Below the pieces are notes generated by a model. That model did not search any database. It saw nothing but the letters and a program-made list of their open reading frames with translations, and was not told the DNA's origin. DNA of 64,000 nt. Origin: Chondrosia reniformis (taxonomy: Eukaryota; Porifera; Demospongiae; Chondrillida; Chondrillidae). Of this stretch, positions 9,880-23,256 are shown piece by piece; position 1 is the first letter of the stretch, and every line of letters begins with the position of its first letter. The translations under genes and the position numbers were made by a program. The stretch covers positions 4,774,001-4,838,000 of the forward strand of contig OX359191.1 of NCBI GenBank assembly GCA_947172415.1, given 5' to 3'.

Positions 9880-10205
9880 TCTTCTGTCTGCCAAACGTTT
9901 CGACCCTGGGGGTCTTCTTCAGTGACTGGTGTTGGTCTTCAAGGTGTCTTCATTTATAGGCATCTTTTCCCGCCATTTTCGATTACCTCATCAGTGATGT
10001 CATCGGTTACATCATTTCCGGAGGAAGGAGAGGTGAAGGGAGTATTCATAAAAAAGGGTTTCCAACCACTTCTTAGTACAATTCCTTGATCTAAGTTCAT
10101 TCTTACCTGACATTGTTGGATCTTCAGGGCTTCCTTAATTCTTCTTCTGTACCAGTTCTCTTCCCTCTCCACCACTCTGGCTTGGCTCCACTCAATTGGA
10201 TGACC
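9880..10205 (-). pseudogene. Penelope-like element, 3' end with GIY-YIG tail remnant
   Basis: Minus strand from 10205 reads TGHPIEWSQARVVEREENWY then RRRIKEALKIQQCQVRMNLD and QGIVLRSGWKPFF. The H-x-I-x-W, RRIKEA and MNxDxGxxL-x-W pattern is the C-terminal tail after the GIY-YIG nuclease of Penelope-like reverse transcriptases. After the coding end the minus strand reads CACTGAAGAAGACCCCCAGG then GTCGAAACG (about 9877-9911), resembling the hammerhead-like segment of these elements but with CTGAAGA in place of CTGATGA. The RT and the GIY-YIG core are absent: the fragment is 5'-truncated where it meets the M45 minisatellite at about 10205. Confidence 0.75.
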
Positions 10206-10912
10206 AGTTTTTAGGGGTTCTAAGTGTGTCTAAAGTTGTTTGAGTGTAGCTTAGCAGAGGCGTTCTATGTCTGTCTAAAATTGTTCGGGTGTAGCTTAGC
10301 AGAGGGGTTCTACATTTGTCTAAAGTTGTACGAGTGTAGCTTAGCAGAGGCATTCCAAGTCTGTCTAAAGCTGTTCGAGTGTAGCTTAGCAGAGGGGTTC
10401 TACATTTGTGTAAAGTTGTTTGAGTGTAACTAGACAGAGGCATTCTACGTCTGTCTATAGTTGTTCGAGTGTGGCTTAGCAGAGGGATTCTACATTTGTC
10501 TAAAGTTGTTCGAGTGTAGGTTAGAAGAGGGGTTCTATGTCTGTCTAAAATTGTTCGGGTGTAGCTTAGCAGAGGGGTTCTACATTTGTCTAAAGTTGTA
10601 CGAGTGTAGCTTAGCAGAGGCATTCCAAGTCTGTCTAAAGCTGTTCGAGTGTAGCTTAGCAGAGGGGTTCTACATTTGTGTAAAGTTGTTCGAGTGTAAC
10701 TAGACAGAGGCGTTCTACGTCTGTCTATAGTTGTTCGAGTGTGGCTTAGCAGAGGGATTCTACATTTGTCTAAAGTTGTTCGAGTGTAGGTTAGCAGAGG
10801 GGTTCTATGTCTGTCTAAAGTTGTTCAAGTGTAACTTGACAGAGGCGTTCTAAGTCTGTCTAAAGTTGTTTTAGTGTACCTTAGCAGAGGCGTTCTAAGT
10901 CTGTCTAAAGTT
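10206..10912. repeat. M45 minisatellite array, left block
   Basis: About 15 tandem copies of a 45-base unit, consensus GTTCTAAGTCTGTCTAAAGT then TGTTCGAGTGTAGCTTAGCA GAGGG, alternating with a GTTCTACATTTGTCTAAAGT variant. Reading frames are open across it on both strands because 45 is divisible by three; they are not genes. The array resumes at about 13100, so the Merlin element lies inside it. Confidence 0.95.
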
Positions 10913-11761: not shown

Positions 11762-12853
11762 ATGTCTTTCATGGAAATAGGAAAAGTGGCTTTTGGCTCC
11801 ACAGATGATTTGATTAGCAGGTTTCAATCAAAAAGGTTGCTAGCTAGCACCATGACTTGCAGTAATTGCAGCATTAATATAGACTGGGGTCCTCGAAAAG
11901 ACATTAAAGATGGATTCAGTTTTGTAATTTCATAAAATGCAGTGCTTTATATAACAAACATTGAAAATTATAAAAAATGTAAATGTTAAGATTAATAATT
12001 AAACAATTAGTGTATGTTAAATTAATAGATGGAGATGTCCAAGTTGCAAAAATACCAAATTAATTCGACAGGGCAGCTTCTTCAGCAGATCCAAACTGAC
12101 TTTGCAGAGGTGGCTGCTATTGATTCATTGGTGGGCCTGGGAGTACAAGGTCACCAGTGCTGCAGTCAATATGGAGGTGGCAGAGAGTTCAGCATGTGAC
12201 GTCTACCAGTGGCTGCGTGAAGTCTGCTCCACAAAGCTAATTAGCATGCGGATAGAGCTAGGAGGGGTAGGGAAGGCTGTTCAAATTGATGAAAGTCTTT
12301 TTTCCACAAATCTAAAGTAAGAAAAATAAAATAAACATCAAAAACTTTTAATTTGTGACAGAATGAAAATTTACTTACTTTGCACTTTGTGTCTATGTAG
12401 TATCACCGTGGAAGAGCACCAGCTCAGGAAAGATGGGTTTTTGCGATGTGTGACATGTCCTATGAACCAGCATTAGGCTACATGGAGCTGGTGCCTGATA
12501 AAAGAGCATCAACATTACTGCCCATTATCCAGGCCAACATCAAGCCTGGAACTACCATCAGATCAGATCAATGGGCAGCATACAGTAACGTGGCTCAGCT
12601 ACCTAATGTTGCTAGCCACGTTACTGTCAATCATAGCCTGCATTTTGTGGACCCAAACACATGTGTCCACACACAAAATATCGAATCCTATTGGCAGAGA
12701 GTCAAGGATAAGTTTAAATCTATGAGAGGGGTATCCAGTGAACGCCTGCCTGGATACCTGGATGAATATATGTGGCGGGAGAGGCACGGGAGGACTAAAA
12801 TTGATGCCTTTAACAACATAATAACACATATTAACAATCAATATCCTGTTTAG
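11762..12853 (+). pseudogene. Merlin transposase, three exons (ISXO2-like DDE)
   Basis: Exon 1 (11762-11923) encodes MSFMEIGKVAF and a CSNC pair. Exon 2 (12029-12316) encodes WRCPSCKNTKLIRQGSFFSR, completing a zinc ribbon, and the first catalytic Asp in VQIDES (12288). Exon 3 (12401-12853) begins YHRGRAPAQERWVF, carries the second Asp in IRSDQWAAYSNV, VNHSLHFVDP..THTQ-type text (VDPNTCVHTQ) and the catalytic Glu in NIESYWQRVK (12683), then ends after YLDEYMWRERHG. This is the ISXO2-like DDE domain of Merlin/IS1595 transposases, which cut and paste DNA. All DDE residues are present. Introns have good donors and acceptors (GTAATT, GTAAGA; TAG), but both junctions are out of register by one base as read, so either a base was lost at each junction or my splice choices are wrong. 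Length (about 300 residues) suits the family. Confidence 0.85.
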
Positions 12854-13185: not shown

Positions 13186-13940
13186 TTGTCTGTAATAATA
13201 GCACTACAACTTTAACTTATCTCATTGTACAAATTGTGTAGTTGATCATCATCTTTACTCAACCCTTTTTTACATAAAAAGTCCTGCAATGGATTTGGTC
13301 TCATGCTCGTGAAAGAGAGTTGAAAATTAATATTGGTTAATTGTCTTGACTATCTTTTAATTTTCCCGAATCAGGTTAATTAATGAATAATTAATTACAC
13401 AAACAGTGCATATATATGTTTATAGTTCTACTGAAAGAAAATGTTCCCGCCTCCAGAAACTTTTATTGAATGGAACGTCTAAAGGAAAAAAGAGAAAAAT
13501 CATTAATTTTTTTTATTTTACATATGTTATACATTCAAGTGCATGTTGTTTACCATTGAACCCTTCCCCTCTCTACCCACATTGCTTTTGGGGAGTTGCA
13601 TCTTTTGCACCTCCCCCTGAAGCCAAAGTTGTAGAACCTGCATCTACACATGGAAAAGAGATTATAATAACATACACAAAAAACTGGTTAAGACACATCT
13701 TACCTGTTACATGTCCACCCTTTCTTGCCTGCCTTTTTTGTGTTTGAGGGCGGGGAACTGGGTCAGAGGGTGGGGAGGTGGAGGTAGTGGGTGTAGTGCT
13801 TGGACACTCACACTCGAGTGATGTCCAGTCATGCCACAGATCTTCCTGCCTGTACTTAGGAAGTCTTAAGTTACCTTAGAAATGTTAAGTCCTTCTTAAG
13901 ACCACCTTTAGATTCAATGTAAATATATCCCATGCAATGA
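13186..13940. other. Intergenic; nothing recognised
   Basis: A 113-codon frame at 13406-13747 has no recognisable domain and an A/T-rich, low-complexity start. I see no supported gene here. Confidence 0.4.
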
Positions 13941-13944
13941 AATG

Positions 13945-14428
13945 TGGCCATCTTGAGAGAGTATTCTGAGACAACTTAGTAACTATAGGTGGAACTTAAG
14001 AAAGTTTTATGATTCCTAAGTAGTATTACTGAAGAGTGGCCATCTTGAGAAGTGTCATTCAGAGTATTCTGAGAATACTTAGTAACTAGGAGGAACTTAA
14101 AAGGTCTTATGATTCCTAAGTAGTAATACTGAAGAGTGGCCATCTTGAGAAGGGTCATTCAGAGTATTCTGAGGCTACTTAACACCTAGATGGAACTTAA
14201 GAAAGTCTTATGATTCCTAAGTAGTATTACTGAAGAGTGGCCATCTTGAGAAGGGTCATTCAGAGTATTCTGAGAATCCTTAGTAATAAGGTGGAACTTA
14301 AGAAAGTCTTATGATTCCTAAGTAATATTACTGAAGAGTGGCCATCTTGAGAAGGGTCATTCAGAGTATTCTGAGAATACTTAGTAACTAGGTGGAACTT
14401 AAGATAGTCTTATGATTCCCAGCTATAA
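13945..14428. repeat. About 100-bp tandem repeat, five copies
   Basis: The phrase GAGTGGCCATCTTGAGAAG recurs at about 100-base spacing (14034, 14134, 14235, 14336), with GGTCATTCAGAGTATTCTGA and GGAACTTAAGAAAGTCTTAT in each unit. The first copy (13945) is degenerate. Confidence 0.9.
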
Positions 14429-14493: not shown

Positions 14494-16713
14494 TTATAAT
14501 AAGTAAATGTTAATCTGCTTTTGGAAATAGTTCACGTGGTGCACTTGGCTGAGCTTCAGTCTCACACATTTTTCTGCAAGTCGTGGACTTTTCCTTGCTG
14601 GCATGTCAGTGTTACCCCCAGGTGGTCTTTTTGGGGGTAGGTCTTCAACTCTATATGTATTAAGTCTACATAAGGTCTGTGTCAAGCATGTATATACATC
14701 TTTGCAGCTAACATACTCAAAACTCTTTCTGTAATCTTTTAGGGAGACACCAAGTCTCCCAAGTTTTTCTGCAAGGGCTTGCTTTTCGTCATTTACATTG
14801 GGAATAGGGGTCTTTTTGAACTCATAAAGCTGTTATAAATTGCATACAACTATTATAAAGATTTCTATAAAGCTGATCTGAAAAAACTCCAAATAATTTA
14901 TTAATGTAATTGATCTTGGAAAGGGCCATACTAGGTATATTTAACAGCAGATTATGTGCTTATACAGGAAGTTCCCCTCTGTGGTTTAATTTCTCTCAAT
15001 TGTCCTAGACTTGCCTCTTCAAGTCTCCTGAAGGCTTCAACTGCTCCTTCCTTATTTCCTTTTCCGCTAAACGTTTTTTCATTAATAGGTGAGAAAGGTT
15101 AAGGATATGTCCAGGAAGCAGTAGTGTATAAGCCATTACAGACTGGTCGCTTCCAGCACTGTGGTCCTTTTCCTTTTCTGCATTTATGTACACATTATAT
15201 ATGCAACAACTTGTATACGTATATATATATATAAGTTTGTTACCTGATATAACACTTGCAATGTACTCGTTGATGTCACCTATTCCAGCCATAAATGCAA
15301 CATGCTGTATGCACATCTCTACAAAATCTGCTAATGCAATCACTGCTTCTGAGCATATTTCCATAGGAATGCCCTCTATTGATGCATTTTCAAGTTTGAA
15401 GAGAACATGAAAGGCAGCTGAAACCCTGACAATAAGTCCTTTCCCTTTACTCAACATACCTTCCCAAGTCACATTAGCATATGGATTAATGCATGAAAGT
15501 TAGTATGGTATACAGATGTGTATAAGCAAGGTCAAGGACATAAATCTTAACCTGCGAGTAGCTCATCAATGACTGATAATGCTTCAAGTTGCTCCTGTAT
15601 GACATCATATTTGGCTTTAAAGGCTTCACATGATCTTGGCAGTGTCCAGGCATGACTAATTTTCTTACTGGGACTCCAAAGGGATTTCAATAGCTCCACT
15701 GTGTTGATCCAATTGTGCATGAATGCATACTACAATTTGCTGTATACATCGTAATTAGGGTTGTGACTGACCAATGCTTTCACTGAATAGCTCATCAACT
15801 GGTTCTAGGTCTTCAAACCTATTGTACCAGGGCTTTGGAAAAAACCAAAAGAATCTCTGTGAAAGGCCCTTCTCTGCATTTGAGGTCATTTCTATGAGGT
15901 TTCTTGCTACACTGGGTTGTGTAAACCCTCCAATAGTAAGGCTTGTATGCTCCATGGAGAAATTAGCTTTGCCATGAACTATCAGCAAAAGATAAATTTA
16001 TGATTGAATAACCAGCGATATACGAATTAAAAATATTTAAGATCCGTTATATTAATGTGCACAATCTTAACCTGTTCTCCTTGACCAAGGAGTGCCATTG
16101 TACAGCTGAAGAAACAGAGCCAAATCATGAGAATCTGCCAGTCCTCGTCCCTTGTACAAATTGATTTGAGTCAGAAAGGTTGATAGCTCATCGTATAATC
16201 CTAGCAACTTAGAATGGTTTTCATCCATCAAAGCTCCCATTTTTTCAAAAGTGGCTTCTTCCAACAACCAAGAAGGTTCTCTGGTAGTCTTGCATTTAGA
16301 TCTCACCTTGCCAATTAGGCTGAGTAAGTACTTGTAAAGCGGTGTTTTACCACTACCTGTTGGCATTCCAATTGCCATCCAAATTAAAACAGACTCTTCC
16401 CAATTAGTGCCAGGAATAGTAACTGTAGCATGACTCATACAGTATACCACAAGGGTTAGTAAACCTCCCAGGACTGCTGTTGCAGGCATATTCAATGCCT
16501 TCCCTACCTGTTTACAACCCTGAATTTACGAATAAATATACTAACACCATGCACACTTCTGATTGCTGCAGGAAATACATTTATGTGATTTACCTTGGTA
16601 AAATATGAAGGATAAAGATCCCAGTTAACATCTCTTTGCCAACACTGTTCCAGCCTATTTCTAGTATCCATGTGTAAGGCTTTAACCTTCCCTTTAGGGG
16701 TCACTGTTGCCAT
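14494..16713 (-). CDS. DUF3987-type P-loop ATPase gene, multi-exon
   Basis: Exon 1 (16594-16713) starts MATVTPKGKVKALHMDTRNR and ends YFTK at a GTAAAT donor. Exon 2 (16072-16507) joins in frame (VGKALNMPATAVLGG) and holds the Walker A IGMPTGSGKTPLYKYLLSLI plus GLYDELSTFLTQINLYKGRG, the DE of a Walker B-like region, and FLQLYNGTPWSRRT. Exon 3 (15772-15978) joins in frame as VHGKANFSMEHTSLTIGGFT and includes GLSQRFFWFFPKPW. Later coding text at about 15550-15700 (WTLPRSCEAFKAKYDVIQEQ), 15245-15475 (GLIVRVSAAFHVLFKL) and 14520-14830 (AEKLGRLGVSLKDYRKSFEY; then PPKRPPGGNT and KSPRLAEK) fits the C-terminal half, with exon borders uncertain. These match DUF3987, P-loop proteins related to phage primase/helicase proteins. 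The exact activity is unknown. Exons 1-3 show no break. It is divergent from the KDZ-type gene that starts at 16973. Confidence 0.75.
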
Positions 16714-16972
16714 TATTAATCAACTGATAATAGCTGCTATTCCAACAGCATTATATACTACCACTAAGGTAAAGGGTCTTTTTGTGCTTTGTTGCCGTAA
16801 CTGTTCTAAGACTAAGACAATAAAACAATGGCTGTGGTTGTGTGGAAGTAGCCTCACCATAAAGTGTTAATATGGGTTTACTTAACGCTCATTGGCTGCT
16901 AATAGGTCACACCTATGTATATAGCTTGTCATAGAAGGAAGTAGAGGTAAACTGCAGTGAGTAGTGTATCAA
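16714..16972. promoter_or_regulatory. Shared bidirectional promoter region
   Basis: Only about 260 bases separate the starts of the DUF3987 gene (minus) and the KDZ-type gene (plus). It contains GCTCATTGGCTGC (CCAAT-type box, plus strand ATTGG at about 16890) and TATATAG (about 16919). A shared promoter is inferred from spacing; no transcription start is visible. Confidence 0.4.
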
Positions 16973-19400
16973 ATGTCTTTATTAAAATTTAGTAAATCTG
17001 TCTAAGGATGTTTCTGTGCTTCAACGAATGGTGTTTGCAGCAGCCCATTTGCCATGTGAATTACCAAATCTTTGGGAAGTAGAGGTAGAGTTTGCCAGTT
17101 TAGTATCTGATTCCAAGAACAGTAGCCTAACCCCAGAAAAAGCACAAGTTTTAATTGAAAACCTTGGAGATCTCAATGAGGAAGTCTTCACTTCAATAAA
17201 GAATAATGCCATGTTACTTGAATTAGTCCGCTACTGTCCTAAAGCCGACAAAGCTCCCAAACCTATAGGTATTATACTTATGTCATCTAGAGAGAATTGC
17301 CAGAATTGCAACTCTAAGCTGGTCTTAAGAAGTGATAGACCTAGCCCTATTGTCATTTATGATGACCTACTTGGATCACTACCTGGAAATCACTATCACA
17401 AATACTGTCGTAAAACAGGATGCCAATTTTATCAGTATTATGGCTACCATTCACAAGGTAATACTGCGAAAATCTTCTATGATGAAGAATGGGCATCACT
17501 GGCCTACTTTGTAACCTCTCAAAGGAGTGCCTTTGCAATGAGATTTTTGAAATTCTACAATGCAGATCTGCTAATTGGCCAGGTTAGTTACAAGCAGAGG
17601 TCTGACATATACAACTATTTCCATGGCTACAGCAGTCTAAGTGAACTTTCTGAAGCTACTAAAGAAGCAGAGTCTAGTACCAAGTGAGTATAACTGTTAC
17701 AAAAAAGCTTTATCCTATTAAAACATTGAGACACAATAGTTATCATTCAACATACAGTTATCAAGAAAGAAAGTGCCTTGATAGACGAAAATTTGAGGAT
17801 GGTCATGTGCGCTTTGCAGTCCTTCAAGTGATAGCATGGTATAAGGATCAATTTTCTTTAAATGACACACCACTTTTGGCTTCCGTAAATGAAACTCTGA
17901 AATCTGTGACATCAAAATATTTCAGTAGTTTTACACAAACATATTCTGGTAAGGTAAAATTATACATATATCCCCACACTGCAACCTAATGTAGCTATAT
18001 TATATACAATAATATAGCACATCAATGTAATTTTTCTGGCTGCCATACTGTATTGGTAATTGATGGTAATATGAAGAACCACCGTGACGTATGTAAAGCG
18101 AAGGATGCAGGTTATATTGAATTTGAGGGATTGGTAGGTGTGTGGACAACTAATGATAATTACTCTTGGGACCATAAATGATGGAATGTTTCCTAACCCA
18201 TGCATCTATGTATATTGCAGGTGCCATTAAAATAGGCTGTACTAAAACACCAGCATACAAATCAAGATTCTGTGATTAACACAAACCACGACTCTTCATG
18301 CCATCTGGACAAAATAAAGATTCAAACATTGATCCACCAGGTCCTTCATAGGCTGCTGACAATGACTTCCCAGTGATTCATTTCATAACAGATAAACGTA
18401 CTACTAGGGCAGGAACTTACTACCAGGTATATTCAACTCAAGTTTATGGCTTATAGCAAGAATCAGTATATGTGCATCTTATGTTTTACTGATTGCAAGG
18501 TGGCATGGCTTGGCCAAGAAACGTCCAAATCTACTTGGGAACTGGCTGACAGTCTACCCAAATCAGTAATATCTGAGTATGAGAAAGGCTTCCAGGCAGA
18601 CGTGTCTACTGAAACCCAAACCTATGGTGGCCACTCTACTCACATAATTAGCTAAACGGAGTCCTCCCTTAAAGGTCAACCACCACCAACTAAGAAGACC
18701 AAGACTGCACAACCAACAAAGGGCTGGTTAGTTCGTTTATTAATACTTTGAGACTACACAGTTGAATGAATACGTCTTCATATTTTCATATTAAACAGTT
18801 CTATACCCAATCCTGGAATATTTGAAGAATCCAGCATAAATCTAGCCTGTAACACAGAAAAAGATAAAGTCAAACTCAATGAGAATACAGCAGGTGTGAG
18901 CCTAGTATATATAAGCATGCAATAAGATACTTAGAGCTGTAGGTATACCCTGCCTTTACAAGGATATGCTTGCCTATTAGGAATACTTGCAGGTATATGG
19001 CTATGTGAAGTGATAACTTTAGTGCTGGAACTCTTCCTTTCTGAGGCTAAGTCACAGGTTTATGGTGCACTCCATGACTTCTGCAGAAGCAACCCAGTAT
19101 CAACTGAGGGCTTAGGTATATACGTAGGATTCTATCGTTTGGATTAGTTTTACTTAAAATTGATAGCTTTGGCACTATAGATATTTTTCTGTTATTATGA
19201 ATAGACTTCATATGCTATAATGATGGCTGCCACCTTCGTAAATATGCCAATCATCCATCATGAAAGGATCTTACCACTTTTACTAAGCAAATTGCCAACT
19301 GTGAAATTGTTGCGGACAAGATGCATTTTGCTGGCCATAGGGAGAGCTGGTGCAAGAAACATTGCAACCCTAATGATCATCCTGTTTTGAATTTAGTAGG
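16973..19400 (+). pseudogene. KDZ-type transposon gene: CxC5/CxC6 clusters, chromodomain-like, KDZ motifs
   Basis: Exon 1 (16973-17683, one early frameshift near 17000) reads VFAAAHLPCELPNLWEVEVE and a Cys cluster CQNCNSKL..CRKTGC (CxC5-like). Exon 2 (17758-17948) joins in frame: STNYQERKCLDRRKFEDGHV. Exon 3 (18018-18137) joins as TYSAHQCNFSGCHTVL then VIDGNMKNHRDVCKAKDAGY. Exon 4 (18221-18426) gives IKIGCTKTPAYKSRFCD, an in-frame TAA, then HKPR; this is CxC6-like. Next comes VAWLGQETSKSTWELADSLP (18498-18660), chromodomain-like. About 18940-19110 reads ITLVLELFLSEAKSQVYGAL, and 19211-19399 reads YNDGCHLRKYANHPS, a TGA, then VADKMHFAGHRESWCKKHCN, KDZ transposase core motifs. The splice frames agree at three junctions, so the model is strong. 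Two or more stops and loss of the 3' end indicate decay. Confidence 0.75.
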
Positions 19401-19435
19401 TAACCTGCCTTAATGTCTACTACACTTTCAAATCC

Positions 19436-19512
19436 TTTTTAGGGGCTGCCTCTGGCAGCCCCTCTATTGTTTTCCTAACGCGATTTATGTATGGCTTCAT
19501 GTTATGGATATA
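19436..19512. repeat. Dispersed repeat with GGGGCTGCC palindrome, copy 1
   Basis: GGGGCTGCCTCTGGCAGCCCC is a perfect hairpin, followed by TATTGTTTTC, ACGCGATTTATGTATGGCTT and CATGTTATGG. The same order occurs at 56585-56662, where the palindrome is degraded. Confidence 0.8.
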
Positions 19513-19546
19513 TATATATATATATATATACAAATATATATATAAT
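19508..19546. repeat. (TA)n microsatellite
   Basis: Alternating TA run directly after the dispersed repeat. Confidence 0.9.
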
Positions 19547-19778
19547 ACGAGTTCATACGCAACTATTATGACACATTTTATACGTCGATATATGGATAAT
19601 ACGAGTTCATACGCAACTATTGTAACACTTAATTTATACGTCAATACTTCGTTTTTGCAAATGGCGGCGTTCAGGAAGCTTTAGTTAACGAAGCTTTTCT
19701 GTCGCTATTTATAATTTTTAGGACACCTTAGCGTCCTCAATCGTTAGGATTAAGAACAGTATATCAAAGCCCAACGAT

Positions 19779-19856
19779 GCGGCCAAGTAGTTTGCGTAAA
19801 TTCGGGGGCGGTAGCCCCACGAATTTTTAGACTCGAACTACTTGTCTAATGTATCG
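19779..19856. repeat. Short inverted repeat, AAGTAGTT..AACTACTT, copy 1
   Basis: GCGGCCAAGTAGTTTGCGTA .. ACTCGAACTACTT folds with an inner GGGGCGGTAGCCCC hairpin. A relative lies at 25666-25733. Confidence 0.7.
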
Positions 19857-20027
19857 TAGGTTGATACCGAAATATGCAAACAAACGTTTTCTTGGCTCTC
19901 TTGTTATGCCAGAATGACAAGGCATATGAATGAACAACACTTTATGTTTTTCATGCTCTATTTATGTGATCTACACAACCATAAAGTTATTTCCACACAA
20001 TAATAATACTAAAAAGATGACACGAAA

Positions 20028-20182
20028 TTCTGGAGTTACTTTGTATTCTCAGAATAGGGCTATTTAATATAGGGGTCAAAGGTTAGACAGTATGGGAGAG
20101 AGGCAGGAAATTCTGGAGTTACTTTGTATTCTCAGAATAGGGCTATTTAATATAGGAGTCAAAGGTTAGACAGTATGGGAAG
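20028..20182. repeat. Tandem duplication of about 70 bp
   Basis: GAAATTCTGGAGTTACTTTG and the following CTCAGAATAGGGCTATTTAA, TCAAAGGTTAGACAGTATGG occur twice, at 20027 and 20106. Confidence 0.9.
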
Positions 20183-20299
20183 AAAACAAATACAGACTAG
20201 ATAAACTTAATCTCAGAATAGTCTGGTATAGTCTTATGTTAGTTTGTGAAGTTCTTAAGAAAAGGTAAGAAGGTCTGTGGCATGAGTGGACATGAGTGG

Positions 20300-20480
20300 C
20301 TTGGAAGGGGGGGTAAGAAAGTGGGAGTAATATTGGGTGGAGGGGGAGGATTGTTGGGTGTGATAGGTGTAATGTTCATTGGGGGTGGTGTATTGGTGAG
20401 GGTGGTGGGAGTAGGGTTGGGTGGGGGTAGAGAAGTGGTGGGGGTGGTGGGGTTAATGTTTGGTTGGGGGGGTGGGTTTA
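20300..20480. repeat. G-rich GGTGG/GGGTGG tract
   Basis: A strongly G-rich plus strand (runs such as GGGTGGGGGT) that would read as a Pro-rich peptide on the minus strand. It is homologous to the tract at 41845-42020. G-quadruplex formation is plausible from the runs. Confidence 0.75.
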
Positions 20481-21280: not shown

Positions 21281-21929
21281 GTGAGTATATTGATTATCTT
21301 TCACTAAGCAATAACGCTTATATATATAAGTATATAGTAGACCTCCTATATTATATACGCGCTGCTTATACATTAACTTATAATTATGTAAAGACGACTT
21401 GGCCTTTGATCGCCGTCTCTAAACAAACAGTAGTGTACAATCCATAAAAGATTAATATTTCAATACTCCATGTCAAGAATTGGTGAACACAAAGACATAG
21501 GGTGCTACACTGTGAGGGAGGGAAACACATTATCAAATCAAATCTTAGGAGGCACCCCCGTACTCAAGCTACTTGCTCATATTTCAGTATTAAGGCATCA
21601 AGCGTACGTTTCACCGGTTCCAATTCGTCGTTTGAAGTCCGTAAGTCTTTAAAACCTTGTACGCAGGCTTTACTTTGGTTTTCATCAGTTCAGTTTTCAT
21701 TACTGTCATTCTCATCAGTGACGCTAGTGAAGAGAAAGCTAATTAAAGCTTAGAATAGTATGCCGAAGTTAGCCTAAGTGTTGGGCATTTTGTTTACAAG
21801 CATTCGAAGATGGAAGCCATATCAAAATTTTATTTGAAATATAGCATAGGGATTTCACGGTGCCTCGTTAGTCCTATAGTCTCACGGCTCATGACTCCCT
21901 CTACTAAAGTCTTATAGTATATTAAGGCA

Positions 21930-22225
21930 GAGGGGTTCTACATTTGTCTAAAGTTGTTCGAGTGTAGCTTAGCAGAGGACTTCTACATTTGTCTAAGGTT
22001 TTTCGAGTGTAACTTGACAGAGGCGTTCTAAGTCTGTCTAAAATTGTTCGAGTGTAGCTTAGCAGAGGGGTTCGACATTTGTCTAAAGTTGTTCGAGTAT
22101 AGATTAGCAGAAGGGTTCTAAGTCTGTTTAAAGTTGTTCGAGTGTAGCTTAGCAGAGGGGTTCTAAGTGTGTCTAAAGTTGTACGAGTTTAGCTTAGCAG
22201 AGGGGTTCTACATTTGTCTAAAGTT
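21930..22225. repeat. M45 array in D1 copy A
   Basis: About 6.5 units of the 45-base minisatellite, bounded on the right by the spacer beginning TTACGGTGCCTCCAAATATA. Confidence 0.9.
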
Positions 22226-22402
22226 ACGGTGCCTCCAAATATACCCTATTCTGTTAGTCTTTTAGTCTTACAGCTCATGACGTCCCTGTACTAAAGTCTT
22301 ATAGTACATTTAGGCTGTAAGTTTACTTCTAACTTAAATTAGATTCCTGTGTTTACAAATAGGACAGTATTTGTTTATAAACTGTTTATAATAAATATAT
22401 CC

Positions 22403-23256
22403 TTAATCCTGTCAGAATAGGCAACCACACGGTTGAAGATGTTAAAGTTTTACACACAGGATTGCTTTCCAGTGGGTCCGTGGATTTACTGGCTCCCCCA
22501 TTTGATACTGCCCTCAGATTGTATCCTTGTTCAGTGGATGTAGAAGGATATAATGAAACCCAGATTACATGTTTGGCAAAAGACAATCAACTGTATAGAA
22601 TTGATGCAGAACATGCAATTCTACAGAGGCGAGGACAATTCTATACCCATGTTAATTACAATGAGGTTCCTGAACACCTCATTCCACAGGATGACAAAGA
22701 TTGTGCTGCATTACCTCGTCAATTGAAGTTAGCAGTTGGTGCCAGAGTGATGCTTTGCCGTAACATCCACTGTGGTGATGGCCTTGTGAACGGTTCCAGA
22801 GGTATAATTGTGGGATTCAAATGACCAGGAACAACAAATAATTAGAGAAAACCTGGTGAAATGCCTACAGAGGTGTATGTCAAATTCTTTGATCCAAATG
22901 CGGGAAGCCTCTCAAAGGTGACAATTGCCTCCGGTGATCAGGAAGTTGTGCCGATTGTAGCAATTTCAGCATGTGTCTATGGAAAGGAAGGCACACTCTT
23001 GCAGAGAACACAGATTCCTTTGATTCTCTGCTGGGTAGCCACTTCACATAAAGTGCAAGGTTTGTCACTTGATGCAGCAGTCATGGATCTTGGTAAGGAC
23101 GTTTTTGAACCTGGTTTGGCCTATGTAGCTCTAAGTCGTGTGTGTACTCTAAATGGAGTGGCCCTACTGAACTTTGAGCCACAAAAGATGACAGGAAACA
23201 AGAGAGTTCATGAGGAAATGGCATGCAAGGCTGCGACAACAGTCTACTTGTGGTAG
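22403..23256 (+). pseudogene. Helitron PIF1-like helicase, C-terminal fragment
   Basis: From 22403 the sequence is colinear with 53760-54600 of the plus-strand Helitron: LLSSGSVDLLAPPFDTALRL, AALPRQLKLAVGARVMLCRN, GDGLVNGSRGIIVGF, a break near 22822, then PTEVYVKFFDPNAGSLSKV, PLILCWVATSHKVQGLSLDA and YVALSRVCTLNGVALLNFEP. These are the late PIF1 motifs (QGLSLD, YVALSRV) intact. The 5' part of the element is missing: it is cut exactly where D1 copy A ends. It belongs to the same Helitron family as 48-55.7 kb. Confidence 0.85.

Follow-up and report, generated by a model that had tools for sequence, protein, structure and literature searches.

Eukaryotic transposons with DDE-type transposases usually leave copy gain and donor-site repair to the replication and repair systems of the host. 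In bacteria, some DDE transposases act with an AAA+ partner of the initiator clade, as seen for TnsC of Tn7, MuB of Mu and IstB of IS21. The element described here lies in the sponge Chondrosia reniformis, in a 64,000-nucleotide stretch (contig OX359191.1, assembly GCA_947172415.1, positions 4,774,001 to 4,838,000; the window), and joins a DUF3987-type ATPase gene to the transposase gene of a KDZ (Kyakuja-Dileera-Zisupton) transposon. According to excerpts of PMC12730594, KDZ target duplications measure 8 bp in Zisupton and Dileera and 7 bp in Kyakuja, and fungal KDZ elements carry TET/JBP genes as cargo. The window-family element shares with the Zisupton/Dileera type a PF18758 transposase with CxC5, the D-D-E motifs and the 8-bp duplication. 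In contrast, it has short imperfect inverted ends, long subterminal arrays and a chromodomain placed after the first Asp and before the second, and it carries a divergent DUF3987 ATPase gene where the fungal relatives, in the same excerpts, carry a TET/JBP gene.

DUF3987 is presented in excerpts of PMC5862659 as a predicted replicative helicase of prokaryotes, experimentally uncharacterised as of 2018. The same ATPase domain is found in the PrimQH and All3500 primase-DUF3987 families of prokaryotic mobile elements, in which it is fused to a primase domain, whereas in the window family it forms a separate gene adjoining the transposase. KolobokH and Kolobok-1_CCri are also DDE transposons with a helicase gene, on the complementary strand in Kolobok-1_CCri, but excerpts of PMC9587614 describe a RecQ helicase, a TTAA-specific duplication and another transposase superfamily. 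For a DDE transposase together with a superfamily 3 helicase, the literature holds a paper on Teratorn (PMC10175614). A pairing of KDZ transposase and DUF3987 was not found in the open-access literature, where absence is not absence in print; by title, the DUF3987 papers there all concern bacteria, archaea or phages. A recurring DUF3987 partner of a KDZ transposon thus appears not to have been described in that literature, and DUF3987 gains a eukaryotic setting.

Two genes within one pair of inverted ends

The element, a DNA transposon of the KDZ class, spans positions 13816 to ~20305 of the window and contains two genes arranged head-to-head (Table 1). Both genes are enclosed by the same inverted ends and have been copied together to several chromosomal sites; the pair is almost certainly one KDZ-superfamily transposon whose genes moved together, as the preliminary description had proposed. 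With the C4 copy as a DNA query, the genome yielded a full relative on C14, partial relatives on C5, C6 and C9, the window copy at 69%, and further short matches. The left boundary is identical at five insertions (C4, C5, C6, C9 and C14), with a single base change within the end motif at C5, and the flanks are unrelated. The C14 copy, 10,401 bp in length, is the only full copy with both ends and a target duplication: AAAAGACC flanks it on both sides as an 8-bp duplication, the feature of Zisupton and Dileera, and the inverted 15-bp core ATGTCCAGTAATGCC is present at each end. Its interior holds a 3,654-bp nested insertion that the C5 copy cleanly lacks at the corresponding position, and with nested inserts discounted the elements measure ~6.5-6.8 kb. 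Shared terminal repeats, for which a search around the pair had been advised, are found in the window as well, where positions 13821-13862 match the opposite end in inverted orientation (42 bp, 83%, E 8e-9). At the position equivalent to the left array of the window, a 74-bp unit is repeated 16 times in the C4 copy.

The nested insert of the C14 copy contains a tyrosine-recombinase-like frame, of DIRS or Ngaro type by eye.

The two genes also recur together. With P0030, a full-length database relative of the transposase, as the query, five loci of the KDZ family were found in the genome (window, C4, C5, C14:2510-2516k and C14:2300k), and DUF3987 sequence is present on the head side of every one; the copy at C14:2300k carries deletions, matches the window element at 94.6% identity along 2081 bp and retains one exon fragment of DUF3987. 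From the ATPase side, eight DUF3987 loci of the KDZ-type subfamily were listed, four of them (window, C4, C5 and C14) head-to-head with KDZ. Nested insertions, identified by eye, are common at KDZ/DUF3987 loci and could bring two unrelated elements or genes side by side; however, an arrangement kept at five loci, with a common end, differing flanks and an 8-bp duplication, makes the chance of such an origin negligible. Segmental duplication, a second route to the same outcome, was rejected because the flanks of the five insertions differ. An origin as the remnant of an integrated virus, replication helicase included, would be in keeping with the MCM/E1-like helicases of viruses. This source was rejected, and is extremely improbable, since no ATPase relative was confirmed in a scan of viral contigs and no KDZ match was found in phages; moreover, the elements are short, with two genes and transposon ends, and among the listed frames of the C14 copy no capsid or packaging genes were seen.

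Several observations weigh against a single element. No target duplication is visible in the flanks of the window element, and the 15-16 kb read for the C4 and C5 copies revealed no right end, so that the 8-bp duplication rests on one insertion in the KDZ family. The 15-mer end motif is weak by itself, with two matches in the window and two also in one of the 20 simulated windows used as a control. At three of the eight DUF3987 loci, no KDZ gene is present in the 1.5-4.4 kb examined: none within 4.4 kb at C2:6831k, where a hAT-like frame is seen by eye instead, none within 4 kb at C1:5177k, which has Harbinger-like frames by eye, and none within 1.5 kb at C2:7040k (the remaining locus, the small fragment C2:5019k, stands outside this comparison). 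DUF3987 was also not found in the 6.5 kb read around a distant KDZ gene on C7. The preliminary description had named independent copies of each gene, with no conserved neighbour or common ends, as the pattern that would speak against its proposal; this pattern is not seen for the five loci of the KDZ family, and the three DUF3987 loci just given are those that stand without KDZ nearby.

The gene at C7:4143000-4146300 belongs to a different KDZ-like lineage, with YDNMCHLD and EQTFVW recognised by eye.

Table 1 Features of the transposon, in window coordinates
Feature	Position	Strand	Details
DUF3987-side terminus	13816..13862	+	begins GAGTGATGTCCAGTCATGCC; matches the terminus common to five other insertions
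Subterminal tandem array	13958..14419		101-bp unit x 4.6
DUF3987 AAA+ ATPase gene	14494..16713	-	8 exons; decayed
DUF3987 exons	16594-16713, 16072-16519, 15772-15978, 15552-15698, 15244-15459, 14964-15177, 14717-14829, 14494-14650		
Divergent intergenic region	16714..17027		between both start codons
KDZ transposase gene	~17028..20003	+	9 exons; decayed
KDZ exons	to 17683, 17758-17948, 18018-18137, 18221-18426, 18500-18726, 18799-18893, 18981-19115, 19205-19395, 19860-20003		
CxC5 cysteine cluster (PF18718)	17274..17621	+	34 bits; residues 97-212 of ORF 16986-17687
Exon with first catalytic Asp motif	18018..18137	+	VIDGNMKNHRD
Exon with CxC6-like cluster and first chromodomain half	18221..18426	+	GCTKTPAYKSRFC
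Second chromodomain half	18500..18589	+	VAWLGQET...WELADSLPKSVISEYEKG; 14.9 bits, under cut-off
Exon with second catalytic Asp motif	19205..19395	+	YNDGCHLRKY, then MHFAGH..WC..HCNP block
Last exon with third acidic position	19860..20003	+	EICEQ in C14 copy, EICKQ in window
KDZ-side subterminal repeats	20024..20180		83-bp unit x 1.9; contains 23-bp pieces inverted to left array
KDZ-side terminus	20251..20305	-	inverted ATGTCCACTCATGCCACAG; modelled on C14 end; outer end uncertain by several bases

The transposase and ATPase genes

The divergent pair of a DUF3987-type ATPase gene and a KDZ-type gene is confirmed by domain matches on both sides. The two starts, at 17028 and 16713, are separated by ~315 bp in the window, instead of the ~260 bp first estimated, and by 296 bp in the C4 copy. 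The transposase gene was modelled from exon borders, reading frames and the alignment of relatives P0030, P0034 and P0038, and extends beyond position 19400. The gene models are supported by P0030 and by P0001, which lacks one exon: both continue across several of the exon junctions. From the N-terminus, the order is CxC5, DGN, a CxC6-like block, an intron-split chromodomain, D(D/N)GCH and EICEQ, an arrangement that the three relatives share. The motifs DGN, DDGCH and EICEQ/EVCEQ, which from their position are presumably the catalytic D-D-E residues, are present in the C4 or C14 copy and in P0030.

For the transposase core (PF18758, cut-off 26.6 bits), the spliced C-terminus of the C14 copy scores 46.1 bits and P0030, P0034 and P0038 score 42.9-52.1 bits (42.9 for P0030). 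In the window, the last exon by itself reaches 15.9 bits, below the cut-off, and another KDZ piece is unmatched. PF18758 and PF18721 gave no match in a six-frame search of the genome; as PF18758 is clear once the introns are spliced, its empty result is attributed to split exons. Of the two cysteine clusters claimed for the gene, CxC5 is above its cut-off (26.9 bits) in the window and in P0030 (41.2) and just below it in the N-terminal half of the C4 protein (26.8), and CxC6 is seen through alignment only, as a CxC6-like C-x-H block. The chromodomain-like segment (cut-off 25.1 bits) remains below cut-off in the window half-exon, in the C4 protein (20.8) and in P0030 (23.3); the fold of P0030 matches HP1/Rhino chromodomains. 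A fold search with the KDZ model returned no transposase match, the 50 rows shown being chromodomains, none at E 0.001 or better. P0038, from Exaiptasia (LOC114576501), is above cut-off for KDZ (43.0) and the chromodomain (32.8), just below it for CxC5 (24.2), and 34% identical to the N-terminal half of the C4 transposase; P0052 from Paramuricea is a shorter cnidarian KDZ relative whose aligned sequence lacks the CxC5 part. The window gene itself is disabled by a frameshift near the start, judged by eye against C4, and by four in-frame stops.

An insert of ~400 bp (window 19440-19843) lies in the last KDZ intron; the sister copy, C14:2300k, does not have it.

In the ATPase gene, PF13148 (cut-off 27 bits) matches the exon that carries the Walker A and B motifs (16072-16519; GMPTGSGKTP and YDELSTF) with 48 bits. 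The window gene is disabled by a frameshift in exon 6 and by loss of the splice donor after that exon. The C4 gene is intact, with an open frame of 546 residues and GT-AG at all splice sites, and its protein scores 101 bits. The window and C4 cores are 21-24% identical to two prokaryote-type DUF3987 members.

A comparison of the window copy with the C4 copy shows saturation at synonymous sites (pS 0.80-0.85). Nonsynonymous change amounts to 0.13 for two exons of the ATPase gene, of 149 and 68 codons, and to 0.22 for the CxC5 part, over 120 codons. This combination indicates that both genes were kept long after the window and C4 lineages split, and purifying selection has acted on both.

Possible role of the ATPase in transposition

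Among the Foldseek rows shown, MCM chains are nearest to the core modelled for a database relative of the ATPase, consistent with an AAA+ core of the MCM/E1 kind. The ATPase is probably a motor that acts on DNA, as a helicase or a remodeller; it would most likely do so in ring form, either while transposition is under way or afterwards. In the proposed course of events, the KDZ transposase would bind the arrays and terminal repeats and cut and join the element ends, with its chromodomain directing insertion toward modified chromatin. The DUF3987 protein would form an MCM/E1-like AAA+ ring and, at the transposition complex, unwind the DNA or remodel it. Such a ring would most likely load at a strand-transfer or gap intermediate, allowing the element to be copied or repaired before it is lost. 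A two-gene KDZ transposon that works in this manner is very likely the best overall explanation; actual replication of the element is less likely than not, the replication role of the ATPase being suggested by predicted fold and family. The motor reading is tempered by a model whose good quality is confined to the core (mean pLDDT 62), by ClpX unfoldases at rank 3-4 in the Foldseek results and by the absence of any primase or polymerase seen in the window element; furthermore, a predicted fold alone does not demonstrate unwinding.

The main rival holds that the ATPase is a regulator of the TnsC, MuB or IstB kind, which would coat or mark target DNA, recruit and activate the transposase and confer target immunity. 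Bacterial DDE transposons (Tn7, Mu and IS21) do use an AAA+ partner as a regulator, and a separate gene adjoining the transposase, in an element with no primase seen, fits this role. However, the window-family ATPase is, unlike these proteins, predicted to be MCM-like, and it stands in an intron-bearing genome; no TnsC, MuB or IstB fold was present among the Foldseek rows shown, where unlisted families may still match, and excerpts of PMC5862659 link the DUF3987 family to replication in prokaryotes. A regulator is considered unlikely.

Alternatively, DUF3987 could be a passenger or a gene for escape from silencing, outside the transposition reaction, like TET/JBP in fungal KDZ elements. KDZ elements with extra genes are known (excerpts of PMC12730594), and the three DUF3987 loci without KDZ in the stretch examined would agree with a passenger. 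In contrast, the low nonsynonymous change at saturated synonymous sites in the ATPase exons, together with the pairing of DUF3987 with a second transposase-like gene described below, argues for a shared function and renders a passenger improbable. With an MCM-like AAA+ protein of its own under selection, and with this second pairing, the KDZ element offers a test system for self-driven replication or for target choice.

Other settings of DUF3987 and neighbouring features

In a second transposon family, DUF3987 is head-to-head with a different partner, at C2:1950839-1959512 (~8.7 kb) and C2:3090548-3098912 (~8.4 kb). The terminal inverted repeats are ~870 bp long (88%), the ends read GG(C/T)AGATGGCAC, and 8-bp duplications flank the two insertions (GTTTTTCC and GAATTTTC). 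The partner looks DDE-type from motifs read by eye (a DxxH block); no Pfam transposase match above cut-off was found. At its C-terminus lies an OTU protease domain that scores 24.2 bits (cut-off 23.3), accompanied by a weak CXC match below cut-off, and a combination of OTU with an AAA+ accessory protein was not found in the open-access literature. The first exon of the partner occurs at 12 loci as grouped here, with DUF3987 within ~10 kb at six (C2:1955k, C2:3094k, C2:7286k, C9:2694k, C1:5009k and C2:4322k) and not found, among the matches listed, at the other six (C4:1123k, C9:2193k, C6:3664k, C5:4558k, C2:3745k and C2:4759k). Pieces that match the DUF3987 part at C1:4676k and C8:5603k are without a partner exon in the 12-locus list. 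A third, partial copy of the family is seen at C2:7282-7287k.

In a third setting, at C2:4318-4330k, an OB-fold gene, DUF3987 and a transposase-like gene related to the second-family partner follow one another in this order, all on one strand. The OB-fold match is weak, at 19.2 bits for a cut-off of 24, and RPA-like by eye; no element ends were found for this locus (C2:4318200-4329700). In the database protein P0029, DUF3987 is joined to weak, below-cut-off DnaG zinc-ribbon and Toprim matches, and a scan of genome contigs for its relatives returned a single locus.

The KDZ-type DUF3987 cores are 15-23% identical to the others, suggesting that the two kinds were recruited separately or diverged very long ago. 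An identity table and a tree of eleven cores, with two sequences as the prokaryote-type sample, place the KDZ-type DUF3987 apart from the second lineage, with uneven branch support. These differences might reflect more than one recruitment of a prokaryote-type replicative helicase by eukaryotic DDE-type transposons, in the KDZ lineage and in the OTU-ended second lineage with its deeply different DUF3987; transposition would then involve self-encoded unwinding and copy-making, not simple cut-and-paste. This broader view is put forward as a possibility with less than even support.

Three extra loci with a match to the eukaryotic-type primase small subunit (PF01896) were noted at C2:4331519-4334588, C6:6053667-6057402 and C5:3726497-3728150, the best-scoring locus being C5:2072k; one of the extra loci adjoins the DUF3987 locus C2:4324-4330k.

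Outside the element, window positions 12021-12853 hold ISXO2/IS1595-like transposase frames (PF12762, 69.8 bits), a relative of which, 67% identical, lies near DUF3987 at C1:5014k. Frames at 22381-23256 match the Pif1 2B domain (41.7 bits) and are perhaps the end of a Helitron-type helicase. Finally, short-unit satellite-like arrays at 10192-10824 and 21922-22220 are similar to each other by eye.

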